Source: Candidatus Acidiferrales bacterium (GTDB lineage: Bacteria; Acidobacteriota; Terriglobia; Acidiferrales; UBA7541). From it: 51,765 nucleotides of DNA. The DNA is taken from contig JASHRC010000175.1 in assembly GCA_030037525.1 (NCBI GenBank), positions 1 through 51,765 of the forward strand. The letters are read 5' to 3'. Made by a program: the position numbers and the translations under genes. Below, piece after piece: positions 6,606 through 10,351 of this stretch (the stretch's first letter is position 1; each line of letters opens with the position of its first letter). The notes beneath the pieces are model-generated. The model was not told the DNA's origin. It ran no database searches and was given only the letters and a program-made list of their open reading frames with translations.

Positions 6606-6959
6606 TCAACGTTCTTCGGGGGGGACGTAGCGGCGCGTCTGAACTCTGCCTTGATCGGGGTCGCGGGCCTCTTCCACGCCTCGGACAACCTCGGCCTCGT
6701 AATCTTGCCCTTCCTCCGCTAGCTCCGCGACGCTTTCCGAATCGACAGTCTCGGCGCGCGACAACCCCACGATATCCCCTGATTGGCCAGCGGACTCCGC
6801 GCCCAAGCCTTCCACCGTAGGAAGTAGGGGAGGCTTGACTGGTCCTGGCCCGCGCTGGCGGCGCTGGGCACGCTTCCTTTTTTGAGCTTTCAAAGCCTTG
6901 CCACGTACTGCGGATTTCCTCTTGCGAGGTTTTGTCGCTTTCTTGGCCTTCTTCGCCAC
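6606..6959 (-). CDS. Lysine-rich protein with conserved C-terminal acidic motif
   Basis: A 117-residue protein in two parts. Residues 1-37 are almost entirely Lys, Arg and Ala (KKAKKATKPRKRKSAVRGKA), like histone-H1-type DNA-binding tails. The C-terminal half is acidic and includes DSESVAELAEEGQDYEAEVV, a pattern I recall from small conserved hypothetical proteins of soil bacteria. The GTG start at 6959 has AGGAGG 8 bases upstream. I infer a soluble protein with a nucleic-acid-binding basic tail; no function is known to me. Confidence 0.7.
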   Translation of the reverse strand: MAKKAKKATKPRKRKSAVRGKALKAQKRKRAQRRQRGPGPVKPPLLPTVEGLGAESAGQSGDIVGLSRAETVDSESVAELAEEGQDYEAEVVRGVEEARDPDQGRVQTRRYVPPEER

Positions 6960-7263: not shown

Positions 7264-7506
7264 TCTACTGATCTCCGGCACCATGCGATCACGCGGCTCT
7301 GCAAGTCCCAAGCCTCGGACGCTACGATTATGGCAATTGCTGGACACGTCTTGGAAGCCATGCTGCGGCACGATTCGCACGTCAGGCAACAGGCCATGCG
7401 CCGGGCTTTGGATGCCCTGGCAGGGGGACGCTCTGAGGGGGGTTATGTCACAAACAACGTCACAAAATCGGCCAATGTAAGGATCCGAATCAATACAACC
7501 CCTTGA
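7264..7506 (+). pseudogene. Tyrosine integrase C-terminal remnant
   Basis: This 80-codon open stretch begins right after a TAG and has no start codon of its own. It reads STDLRHHAITRLCKSQ..ATIMAIAGHVLEAMLRHDSHVRQQ, which matches boxes of a tyrosine recombinase: the LRHH-type Arg/His box, the AGH box, and the position of the nucleophilic tyrosine (expected LRHYSHVR). Here the tyrosine is replaced by Asp, so the fragment would be catalytically dead even if expressed. It ends 5 bases before the left copy of the tRNA end repeat. I infer a relic of an older element that used the same tRNA-Ala site. Confidence 0.8.
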
Positions 7507-7734
7507 GAATCATGGTGGACCCGAACGCAAAGAATTCGAACTGAAGCCGAACTTCCCTTTGCGGTCATTCTTGCGGACCCTACCGCCGCTCCGCTCTATC
7601 AGCGCATCGCCGCGAAAGCACGTCATCTCCGTCAGCTGGGGCTCGGCTCGACAACCATTGCACGAAGGCTCAGCACAACCCGCAAGACGGTGGTCAAGGC
7701 GCTGGCCTGGCTAGCGAGGCCAAGGCATGAGTAA
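7507..7734 (+). pseudogene. Detached C-terminal HTH tail of the serine recombinase
   Basis: Open frame running from just after the integrase-remnant stop to the TAA at 7732-7734, without its own start. From the repeat core onward it reads WWTRTQRIRTEAELPF.. then ILADPTAAPLYQRIAAKARH and LRQLGLGSTTIARRLS..KTVVKALAWLAR, a helix-turn-helix. The WWT encoded by the core is also the end of the recombinase at 8623-10287, in the same codon phase. In a circularised element the recombinase frame would read straight through into this segment and gain 70 residues. I therefore interpret it as the 3' part of the recombinase gene separated by integration, not an independent gene. Confidence 0.65.
7512..7541 (+). 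repeat. Left attachment site: core plus inverted arm
   Basis: Core ATGGTGGAC (7512-7520), six bases, then the arm GCAAAGAATTCGAAC (7527-7541). The arm is the exact reverse complement of the arm at the right end. The core repeats the tRNA-Ala 3' end. Confidence 0.65.
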
Positions 7735-7752
7735 ATAGTTCCCACATGGCCG

Positions 7753-7781
7753 TTGACAACCGCATGGGAGTTCTTTATGAT
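7753..7781 (+). promoter_or_regulatory. Consensus promoter of the MerR-like gene
   Basis: TTGACA at 7753-7758, a 17-base spacer and TATGAT at 7776-7781: a near-perfect sigma-70 promoter. Transcription should begin near 7788, only about 8 bases before the ATG at 7796, so the message would be nearly leaderless. The -10 box overlaps the palindromic operator. Confidence 0.75.
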
Positions 7782-7797
7782 AGACACTGTCTATTAT
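7777..7797 (+). promoter_or_regulatory. Operator 1 (palindrome over -10 box and start)
   Basis: Perfect palindrome ATAGACA-c-TGTCTAT at 7780-7794 within a 21-base site. A second site at 8386-8406 shares 18 of 21 bases. Its place on the -10 box and transcription start suggests repression, probably by the MerR-like product itself. Confidence 0.6.
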
Positions 7798-8368
7798 GAA
7801 TTCCTGTGCCTCTCGCGAGTGGACGCTCACCGAGGCGGCGCGGTTGTTGGGAGAACCTCAGCACCGGCTGATCTACCTGTGCGAAAAAGGGGTGGTGCAG
7901 CCCGACCTCGAGGACGCCAAAGGCCGCGGAAGTAGCCGTCGCTTTTCTGCGCACAACTTACTGGAATTCGCCATCGCCCTCCGCCTGCGGGTGCTGGAGA
8001 TCCCGACCCCTTCCATTGGCGCGATCACCTACACTCTCCGCGCCTTCGCACACAAAGTTCAGCAGCGAATCCCCGACTTTTGCCTGCCCTATAGTCTTCG
8101 TGGGGCCGGAGCTCCGGATTTGCGCGTCATCATCAAAGATGGACGTCTCTACATGACGCTAGGGACGGGCGCGAAAACAGCCAAAGTGTATGGAGGAATC
8201 GACCTCCGGAGACTGGGTCGGAAGAAGAAGTCGGCCAGGAACCTACAACGGGCACTGGTTCTTCGTACGTCTGGACCGGGAACGAACGGTGACCTCGGGG
8301 AGAATCCTGGAGCGCGTGTGGAGCTCAGTGTTACGAGGATCGCTCAGGAGTTACGGCTGGAGATCTGA
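7796..8368 (+). CDS. MerR-like HTH regulator of the element
   Basis: A 190-residue protein. The N-terminal 70 residues have a MerR-type winged helix: WTLTEAARLLGEPQHRLIYL as the helix-turn-helix and a wing (KGRGSSRRFSAHNLLEFAIA) with the conserved RRF/Y. The rest is not a known effector domain and ends in a basic segment (RRLGRKKKSARNLQRAL). It should be a cytoplasmic DNA-binding protein. Two copies of one palindromic operator lie at its own promoter and just before the small-gene/recombinase unit, so I infer that it represses itself and the recombinase. No Shine-Dalgarno is seen; with the predicted start site the transcript is close to leaderless. Confidence 0.75.
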   Translation: MNSCASREWTLTEAARLLGEPQHRLIYLCEKGVVQPDLEDAKGRGSSRRFSAHNLLEFAIALRLRVLEIPTPSIGAITYTLRAFAHKVQQRIPDFCLPYSLRGAGAPDLRVIIKDGRLYMTLGTGAKTAKVYGGIDLRRLGRKKKSARNLQRALVLRTSGPGTNGDLGENPGARVELSVTRIAQELRLEI

Positions 8369-8384
8369 TTTTTTTTATGCGTTT

Positions 8385-8407
8385 GATGATAGACAGTGAC
8401 TATCATC
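8385..8407 (+). promoter_or_regulatory. Operator 2 before the small gene and recombinase
   Basis: Arms GATGATAG (8385-8392) and CTATCATC (8400-8407) form a perfect 8-bp inverted repeat. The site aligns with operator 1 over 21 bases with 3 differences. A GATGAT -10-like element overlaps it as in operator 1, but no good -35 box is visible 17 bases upstream. Confidence 0.6.
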
Positions 8408-8421
8408 GGAGGGCTAGCTGC

Positions 8422-8613
8422 ATGGCCGTCGCAAAAGCCCGCGTGGCATCGGAGCGGTGGGAGCCCCAGCCACCCTCTGCTAGAGACCCTGCCGCCGATG
8501 CGGCCTGGACGGCCCTTCTCGACCATTTGGCTGAGGAACTGGCGCGCGAATATGTGTGCCTGATGGAGAAGGCGGCCCGCGAGGAATCCATCGATGGGGA
8601 TGCTTCTCGATAG
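8422..8613 (+). CDS. Small acidic protein preceding the recombinase
   Basis: A 63-residue protein. I choose the ATG at 8422 (GGAGGG 8 bases upstream); the in-frame ATG at 8377 would put the operator inside the gene. The core is one acidic amphipathic helix (AAWTALLDHLAEELAREYVC). No known domain is recognised. The stop TAG overlaps the TAGGAGG binding site of the recombinase, so the two are translated as a pair. Its size, position between regulator and integrase and coupling make a recombination directionality or accessory factor possible, but this is inference only. Confidence 0.65.
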   Translation: MAVAKARVASERWEPQPPSARDPAADAAWTALLDHLAEELAREYVCLMEKAAREESIDGDASR

Positions 8614-8622
8614 GAGGTAGGC

Positions 8623-10287
8623 ATGCTTGCGGCGATTTATGCACGCTACAGTTCGGAGAACCAGCGCCCGGAAAGCATCGAAGACCAGGTGGCGGCGTGT
8701 CGTCGCCTCGCTGGCCAGCGTGGATTCACAGTTGTTGAGGATCACGTCTACTCCGACCAAGCTCAATCAGGAGCTCGCAAGGATCGTCAGGGATTGGCTG
8801 CGCTGCTCAGTTCGGCGCAAGGCGGGCAGTTCCAGGTGGTTCTCGTCGACGATCTGTCCCGTCTGGCTCGAGACAACTATCTCATGCTTTCAGTTTTGGC
8901 TGAGCTGCACTTTGCTGGTGTGCGTGTGGTATCGGTCGCCGATGGACTTGATAGCCATGACGAGGAAGCGACGCTGGGGATCCAGATCCGTGGCATCTTC
9001 AACGAGCTGCAACTCCGGGATCTCAGGAACAAGACGTTGCGAGGGCAAATCGGCCAGAAGCAGCGCGGCTTCTCGGTCGGCGAGCATACCTACGGCTATC
9101 GATCCGCCGCTGTGGGTGCCACGCGCTTGGACAAAAAGGGCCGGCCGCGGCCGGAAGGCTACAAAATGGAAATTGATCCTCGAGAAGCAGCCATCGTGCT
9201 ACGCATCTTTCGTGCCTATACAGATGGGCTATCCGTTCTCCGAATCGTTCGATTCCTGAACGCAGAAAGCGTGCCCGGGAGGTTCCGGTCGCGCAAGGGT
9301 TGGTCACCAGCCACCGTGGGCCGCGTGCTCGACAACGAGAAATACATCGGCCGCTGGGTATGGAACAAGACGGAGAGGCGCCGTGATCCGCGGACCGGTC
9401 AACGGAGATGCTTTCCTAAGCCTGCATCCGAGTGGGTCATGCAGGAGGATGAGTCGCTGCGCATCGTGCCACAGGAGTTGTGGGAGCAAGTCCGCACTCG
9501 CCGCAAAGAAGTGCGCCGGAGCTGGCCTGGCGGAAGCGGACAACGCGGATTCTCCGCTCAGCAAGGAGGTCGCGAGAAATACTTCCCCACGCACTTGCTC
9601 TCCGGAGCGATGGTCTGCGGCCAGTGCGGTGCCACGATCGCGCAGGTGAGCGGTAAAGGCGGGGGTTACTATGGATGCCTGGGCGCCGTCAAGGGAGCGT
9701 GCGATAACAAGTTGCTCGTTCGACGCCGCCTGGTTGAGGAGATCATTCTCGATGCGGTCCGGGAGCGGCTCTCTGATCCTCGGCACATCGAGTACGTCCT
9801 CAAGCGCGTCGAGACGGAGGTCGGAAGGCTCTACACACACGTCCCGGAATCGATCCGCCTCAAGGAGACCGAACTCACAGCAGAGGAACGACGGCTTGCA
9901 AACTTCGTCGATTTCATCGGCGAGGGTCGCGGCAGCCGCACGCTTGCCCAGGCGCTCTTAGAATCAGAGCGGAAGGTGGAGGCGCTAAAGGAAGAACTGG
10001 AAAGCCTGCGCCGTTGCCGCGGCAAAGTGTTTCAGGTTCCACCCATCGAGTGGATCCAGGAACGGTTAAGCAAGCTGAAGGAGATCCTGGAGCGCAACTC
10101 AAACCGTTCCGGGCTGCTCCTTCGGAAACTCCTCGGTCCGCTCCGTCTTGAGCCCACGCGCCCTGGTGACAATGATCGACCCTTTTACAGAGCCACGACT
10201 TCGCTCAACACCTTGGCGGTGGTGGATCCCCTGATTGAAGGCGAGGGAGGGAAAAGTGGTTCGAATTCTTTGCAATGGTGGACGTGA
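8623..10287 (+). CDS. Large serine recombinase (integrase), truncated by integration
   Basis: At 554 residues it has the full large-serine-recombinase layout. The resolvase domain (about 1-150) has YARYSSENQ with catalytic Ser10, DDLSRLARD near 76-84 and a long helix. The recombinase domain follows ([20 protein letters not shown]), then a zinc ribbon at about 330-362 (CGQC..C..C) and a coiled coil. A strong AGGAGGT precedes the ATG. The last codons (LQWWT, stop) lie inside the tRNA-Ala gene, so the 3' end is set by the host sequence. Reading in phase across the repeat core leads to a further 70-residue HTH tail now at 7521-7734. It should catalyse integration and excision of this element. Confidence 0.95.
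10259..10283 (+). repeat. Right attachment site: inverted arm plus core
   Basis: Arm GTTCGAATTCTTTGC (10259-10273), one base, then the core ATGGTGGAC (10275-10283), whose last 8 bases are tRNA-Ala 3' end. Joined to the left site through the core it gives a symmetric site of 46 bases with 15-bp arms, the size and form of a serine-integrase attP. Confidence 0.65.
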
Positions 10288-10351
10288 GGGGGCTCGAACC
10301 CCTGACCTCCTCGTTGCGAACGAGGCGCTCTCCCAGCTGAGCTACACGCCC
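10276..10351 (-). tRNA. tRNA-Ala (anticodon CGC)
   Basis: A 76-base cloverleaf including an encoded CCA. Acceptor GGGCGTG pairs with CACGTCC (one G-T), the D-arm is GCTC/GAGC, and the anticodon stem CCTCG/CGAGG encloses the loop TTCGCAA with anticodon CGC, which reads GCG. The T-arm is AGGGG-TTCGAGC-CCCCT. The recombinase gene runs 12 bases into its 3' end from the opposite strand. The tRNA remains intact after integration because the repeat core restores the CCA end. Confidence 0.95.

Follow-up and report, generated by a model that had tools for sequence, protein, structure and literature searches.

A small tRNA-targeting integrative element of a Candidatus Acidiferrales bacterium, with its attachment site probably inside its own serine integrase gene

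What becomes of a recombinase whose gene runs into the attachment site of its own element? The question is raised by contig JASHRC010000175.1 of a Candidatus Acidiferrales bacterium (assembly GCA_030037525.1), analyzed as a single stretch of 51,765 nucleotides that we call the window. An element of about 2.76 kb extends there from the left copy of a short core sequence to the 3′ end of a tRNA-Ala gene and contains a MerR-like gene, a 63-amino-acid open reading frame (ORF), and a large serine integrase gene. We consider it probable that this is a small tRNA-targeting integrative element that carries its attachment site (attP) in the 3′ part of its own serine integrase gene, with a helix-turn-helix (HTH) domain being exchanged upon integration.

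The integrase ORF has three domains above their Pfam cut-offs (Resolvase, PF00239, expect value (E) 3e-28; Recombinase, PF07508, E 1.4e-21; zinc-ribbon, PF13408, E 3.9e-9), all of them on one side of the split, and the N-terminal serines S10 and S11 of the resolvase domain are invariant in all eight full-length copies. Its C-terminus is LQWWT followed by a stop, the frame closing after WWT because the tRNA-Ala sequence provides the stop codon. Read in the integrase phase, the left end of the element continues as WWTRTQRIRT.. for 73 amino acids before a stop, ending in ..LARPRHE with no LAA-like end, and joining the two ends gives 554 + 70 = 624 codons. This left-end reading frame, the tail, is closed upstream at 7504–7506 and has no start codon between there and the core, and it is therefore presumably unexpressed in the integrated state. 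A preliminary description of the locus had placed the core copies, the arms, and the LQWWT-stop end of the integrase at exactly these positions, and its 70-codon continuation to 7734 and total of 624 codons agree with our recomputation (Table 1).

The core, ATGGTGGAC, occurs at the two ends of the element and nowhere else in the window on either strand. The arms beside it form a perfect 15-bp inverted repeat, the longest exact inverted repeat across the 60-base flanks of the core; in 1000 mononucleotide shuffles the maximum was 10 and the mean 5.8. Joined, they form a 46-bp site centered on the GA that ends a shared GTGGA, and the 16-bp spacer is kept in all five natural sites having both arms. 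In these sites a TCGAA motif starts at half-site bp 18 (5/5 right arms, 4/5 left arms). On the host side TCGAA starts at bp 13 in 14 of 16 attR-type sites (exceptions L032 and L043) and belongs to the T-arm of the tRNA or transfer-messenger RNA (tmRNA) gene. The attP motif lies 5 bp farther from the center than the host-side motif, in exact agreement with the serine-integrase offset in the available portion of PMC3783163, where the attB model of LI integrase has its zinc-ribbon domains shifted 5 bp toward the crossover, from bp 16–24 onto bp 11–19. Because tRNA structure fixes the host position and the search for arms relied on their resemblance to those of the window, this offset counts as one coincidence and not as many.

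A search for related integrase loci gave 15, in records naming several phyla, of which one resting on a 25-residue match (L045) was dropped. In all of the remaining 14, at 55–70% identity, the C-terminal integrase frame runs through the core, and none is a homologue with a conserved end of its own at that point. Ten adjoin the 3′ end of a tmRNA gene (L032, L033, L034, L036, L038, L041, L042, and L044) or a tRNA-Ala gene (L035 and L040); at L043 a tmRNA lies about 0.2 kb off, no RNA gene adjoins the end of L031, and both arms are present in L037 and L039. The integrase C-terminal end in genome G451 is the same as in L037, and several of the integrases from L036 to L044 are damaged or cut by contig ends. 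The residues after the core are set by the target, for example RRRESNPRP.. from antisense tmRNA, and the proposal that host sequence replaces the tail in the integrated form is supported at the level of sequence.

Tails were sought separately. At E 0.001 the search matched 8 of 396 genomes of the phylum and 8 of 20 chosen genomes; at E 1e-6 it matched 2 of 298, 3 of 201, 2 of 281, and 5 of 80 genomes, these sets partly overlapping. Matches at E ≤1e-6 amounted to 27 places in 17 genomes. We tabulated the 21 tails whose match reached one of the first three model positions and omitted six partial ones (G498, one of G1105, two of G1107, and two of G1091). A left arm (≤2 mismatches) is correctly placed beside 19 of the 21 (exceptions G777 and G1105b), 13 are open over 67 codons, and none lies within a recognized unrelated gene. 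The order tail, MerR-like gene, small ORF, integrase is found in two complete elements, those of the window and G429. At L038 the tail is present and the integrase match begins at residue 154; in the L031 genome 9.3 kb separate the tail from the integrase start downstream of it. Matches in G183 and G376 (E 8e-4) were set aside, the former sitting within an unrelated long frame. We also dropped the idea of counting integrase loci without a nearby tail as tail losses, given the distant tail of L031 and the contig ends at L032, L034, L035, and L078.

The two halves also occur naturally in one frame. In G489, integrase residues 439–554 (53% identity) lead through a two-armed 46-bp site, both arms perfect, into the tail within a single 351-codon open frame. 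In G583, residues 505–553 (39% identity) are joined through the core to the tail in one frame, followed by a MerR-like match, with a right arm at tmRNA 4.3 kb farther on. A third, weaker case is G165, where, by eye, only about 10 residues before the core can be recognized and decay of the tail sets in after 43 positions. These copies may mark places where tandem copies meet, or they may be free forms that were captured; whatever their origin, they have the make-up of the predicted joined gene. Together with the 19 tails that have a left arm beside them, G489, G583, and more weakly G165 bear out the preliminary description in taking attP to lie inside the integrase gene and the tail to be its natural 3′ continuation. 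The search it suggested, for related recombinases with both halves in one ORF, turned up the same three, none of which is undamaged.

That the tail is instead a separate small gene or repeat that merely sits at the left end is very improbable in our view. Solo tails, several per genome, where the integrase of this clade is absent speak for it; against it stand the absence of any start codon in the window from the upstream stop to the core, the conservation of phase from the core onward, and the joined frames of G489 and G583.

Five other tails share 32–60% identity with that of the window, with the frame and HTH residues kept. Among seven tail copies the proportion of nonsynonymous differences (pN) is below that of synonymous differences (pS) in 21 of 21 pairs, a weak test because synonymous sites are near saturation. 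An AlphaFold model of the tail, built from two sequences only, has helices at residues 33–41, 46–52, and 57–68, with block-mean predicted local distance difference test (pLDDT) values of 92–94 over residues 31–60. Pfam gave only weak HTH matches to the tail, and Foldseek returned for its model only HTH-type folds at E of at least 0.25, with no PDB match at E 0.001. A model of the 554-residue form was poor (mean pLDDT 54) and was discarded as evidence.

This conservation bears on a reading in which the overlap is neutral, attP at the gene end being just a compact layout and the tail dispensable, its loss unimportant. Distant serine integrases (31–38% identity) likewise have 3′ ends that read into antisense tRNA, and no HTH tail was seen at the single distant left end inspected (L081), as this reading would have it; the retention of frame and HTH residues and the uniform excess of pS over pN argue the other way, and we regard it as quite unlikely. 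Because distant integrases also end in antisense tRNA, we suggest that there is nothing rare about attP at the gene end and that what sets this element apart is the HTH encoded past it.

Taken as sequence, the locus and its relatives present an attP within the gene, 3′ ends exchanged in integrated copies, a conserved tail, and natural joined frames; from these we infer that recombination takes place (at the GA), that the element is excised, that the protein has two forms, and that the tail has a part in favoring attP × attB recombination. In the circular form the gene would be continuous through attP, and its product would be an enzyme of 624 residues with an HTH at the C-terminus. Recombination with the 3′ end of a target gene (tRNA or tmRNA), at the GA in the center of the core, would shift the last 70 codons, without a start codon, to the opposite end of the element, and the integrated gene would gain a target-dependent end, namely a stop after WWT at tRNA-Ala(cgc) or antisense-tmRNA residues at tmRNA. 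The 554-residue form retains the catalytic, recombinase, and zinc-ribbon domains, and excision would restore the HTH tail. The most likely role of the HTH would be to aid the full-length enzyme at attP; because it would assist action there, we propose that with integration the integration-competent form is lost and the element tends to stay in place. For excision a helper would then be needed, which might be the MerR-like or the small protein, or full-length enzyme from another copy. That the state of the DNA acts as an enzyme switch in this way, with an attP-favoring HTH made from the circle only, a chromosomal enzyme whose end is written by its target, and arms that mimic the T-arm at a 5-bp offset, is a tentative proposal to which we give a little less than an even chance.

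The same DNA-coded exchange could serve the opposite role, with the HTH restraining excision or acting as a regulator and the 554-residue form excising the element together with a directionality factor. Eight integrated ORFs of 549–554 residues are free of stops and have all three Pfam domains, and the MerR-like and small genes remain linked to the integrase; both observations speak for this role. Those eight were, however, picked for their full length, the other loci being damaged or cut by contig ends, and no directionality factor was identified among the genes analyzed; we consider this role unlikely. If the attP-favoring role is the true one, a single DNA segment would be protein code, attachment site, and tRNA mimic at once, the element would have a built-in means of altering a one-way integrase after integration, and tandem copies would restore the full-length gene within the chromosome.

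Several observations count against an attP inside the integrase gene with an exchanged HTH. Of the 21 tails tabulated, eight have a break within the span of 67 codons. Ten of the 17 tail-bearing genomes have no integrase at E 1e-20 (the search covered 14; G000, G429, and G489 were already known to carry one), so tails persist or spread without the enzyme. The frames of L037 and L039 are open through both arms, yet no recognizable tail lies beyond, and L032, L034, L035, and L078 show non-tail sequence for 560–790 bp before the MerR-like gene, to the contig end. The joined copies are relics without the 5′ part of the gene, and no undamaged gene with integrase and tail was found among the genomes searched, nor any circular form of the element among the data examined. 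The arms of the relatives were found through their similarity to those of the window, so their likeness stems partly from selection. The ten genomes without integrase and the weakness of the third joined copy slightly temper our confidence in this reading and in the enzyme switch proposed above.

Solo tails deserve a separate word. In the phylum of L039, whose record is named Latescibacterota, solo tails are frequent, often with several in one genome. L142–L151 (G1091, G1105, G1106, G1107, and G1098) are solo left ends with a tail; four of the five genomes have several of them, and no integrase of the clade was found in these genomes at E 1e-20. Such tails may be relics; alternatively, an enzyme from elsewhere may have moved these ends. 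In one 3.5-kb unit (L143:7838-11406), which has a broken tail on its left side and, at tmRNA, a right arm, an open frame of 1021 codons replaces the integrase; this unit may be a non-autonomous relative whose content differs. About 100 bp outside attL, L038:310-432 and L142:6341-6470 contain fragments of about 30 bases resembling a tmRNA 3′ end, as if from earlier insertions at the same site. In the G429 assembly a gap of 100 N starts at the att core (L055:6967-7066), which might reflect mixed integrated and excised forms or merely a repeat.

Table 1. Positions of the element's features and its target gene in the window
Feature	Position	Strand	Remarks
Element end of attL	7512..7541	+	Core 7512-7520, left arm 7527-7541; arm doubles as code for tail residues QRIRT
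Detached integrase 3′ end	7513..7734	+	Core codons WWT, then 70 codons up to a stop; HTH predicted
Promoter-like site 7753-7781, overlapped by palindrome copy 7777-7800	7753..7800	+	
MerR-like gene, 190 amino acids	7796..8368	+	Pfam MerR_1 below cut-off; adjoins integrase in relatives too
Palindrome, second copy, 5′ of small ORF	8383..8406	+	
Small ORF, 63 amino acids	8422..8613	+	Similar ORF precedes integrase in relatives
Large serine integrase, integrated form, 554 amino acids	8623..10287	+	Frame through core, stop in host-derived sequence
Element side of attR	10259..10283	+	Right arm 10259-10273, core 10275-10283
tRNA-Ala(cgc), target	10276..10351	-	3′ end supplies core; T-arm supplies host-side TCGAA

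The element had been described as having no cargo, which is nearly right; the MerR-like gene and the small ORF are also present, and in some relatives other genes sit between the element ends. The small ORF had no match in Pfam or NCBIfam. The promoter-like site 5′ of the MerR-like gene has 11 of 12 matches. A palindrome, GATAGNCANTGNCTATCAT in form and with ≤1 mismatch, is present in two copies, one overlapping this site and the other preceding the small ORF. At ≤4 mismatches, at least one copy of the palindrome lies near the MerR-like gene or the integrase in 7 of 7 relatives scanned, a count made without a chance control.

For the host site, 15 same-genus regions were fetched around the neighboring HAD gene. 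tRNA-Ala(cgc) is present in eight of them, antisense to and less than 1 kb from the HAD gene in six of those eight. No element gene (E 0.001) was found in any of the 15 regions, and no arm (≤3 mismatches) within 1 kb of the tRNA-Ala(cgc) genes, which means that members of the genus do not generally carry the insertion. The empty tRNA-Ala site that the preliminary description proposed to look for is matched to the extent that the tRNA occurs without the element in the same genus; a strict empty site is unproven because the flank beyond the tRNA is too diverged to align with the window's left flank, which also counts against our interpretation. In another genus of the same family, L092 (G045) has near 6847 a relic integrase C-terminus (57–61% identity) at tRNA-Ala(cgc). 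The distant serine integrases of L002, L003, and L004 (L080–L082), in three genomes, lie at tRNA-Phe, their C-termini running into antisense tRNA, next to a gene recognized by eye as ftsK-like. Viral contigs gave no match to the integrase, the tail, or the att patterns. Plasmid and phage records gave no tail match at E 0.01, and their integrase matches were all below 60% identity (23–35% among the matches listed).

How does this arrangement compare with known systems? In the open literature, as far as its texts were available, we found no serine integrase described as having attP within its own gene; subscription journals fell mostly outside the search, which makes this weak evidence of absence. 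The accessible portions of PMC3931495, PMC10111431, and PMC12884075 contain nothing of this kind, and in that of PMC2951348 attL lies over the integrase promoter, a different kind of overlap. With the large serine integrases of the LI/A118 type the element has in common the Resolvase, Recombinase, and zinc-ribbon domains and the 5-bp offset between attP and attB motifs; here, in contrast, attP lies inside the coding sequence and an HTH is encoded beyond it. In the integration-dependent immunity of mycobacteriophages (BPs and others), attP also lies in a coding gene and integration alters the C-terminus of the protein (PMC9262239, from the part available). There, however, it is the repressor gene that contains attP, the phages use a tyrosine integrase, and the protein loses an ssrA-like tag, whereas here the integrase gene itself is split and an HTH is exchanged.

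The closest likeness is to the archaeal "suicidal" tyrosine integrases, in which attP lies in the integrase gene and the two parts are separated on integration (PMC8371274, as far as its text was available); in the same portion of that source, self-disrupting recombinases are confined exclusively to archaea. The SSV-type integrases (SSV1, pTN3, pT26-2), going by the accessible text, likewise have attP within their own integrase gene, which integration splits. They are archaeal tyrosine enzymes whose catalytic C-terminal piece is parted from the N-terminal piece, whereas here a bacterial serine integrase would lose only its C-terminal HTH. The element would work like the archaeal suicidal integrases, yet is no member of that group, its recombinase having serine and not tyrosine recombinase domains. 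If our interpretation is true, the element would add a bacterial example from an unrelated enzyme class, one in which the core enzyme stays whole and an accessory domain alone is exchanged.

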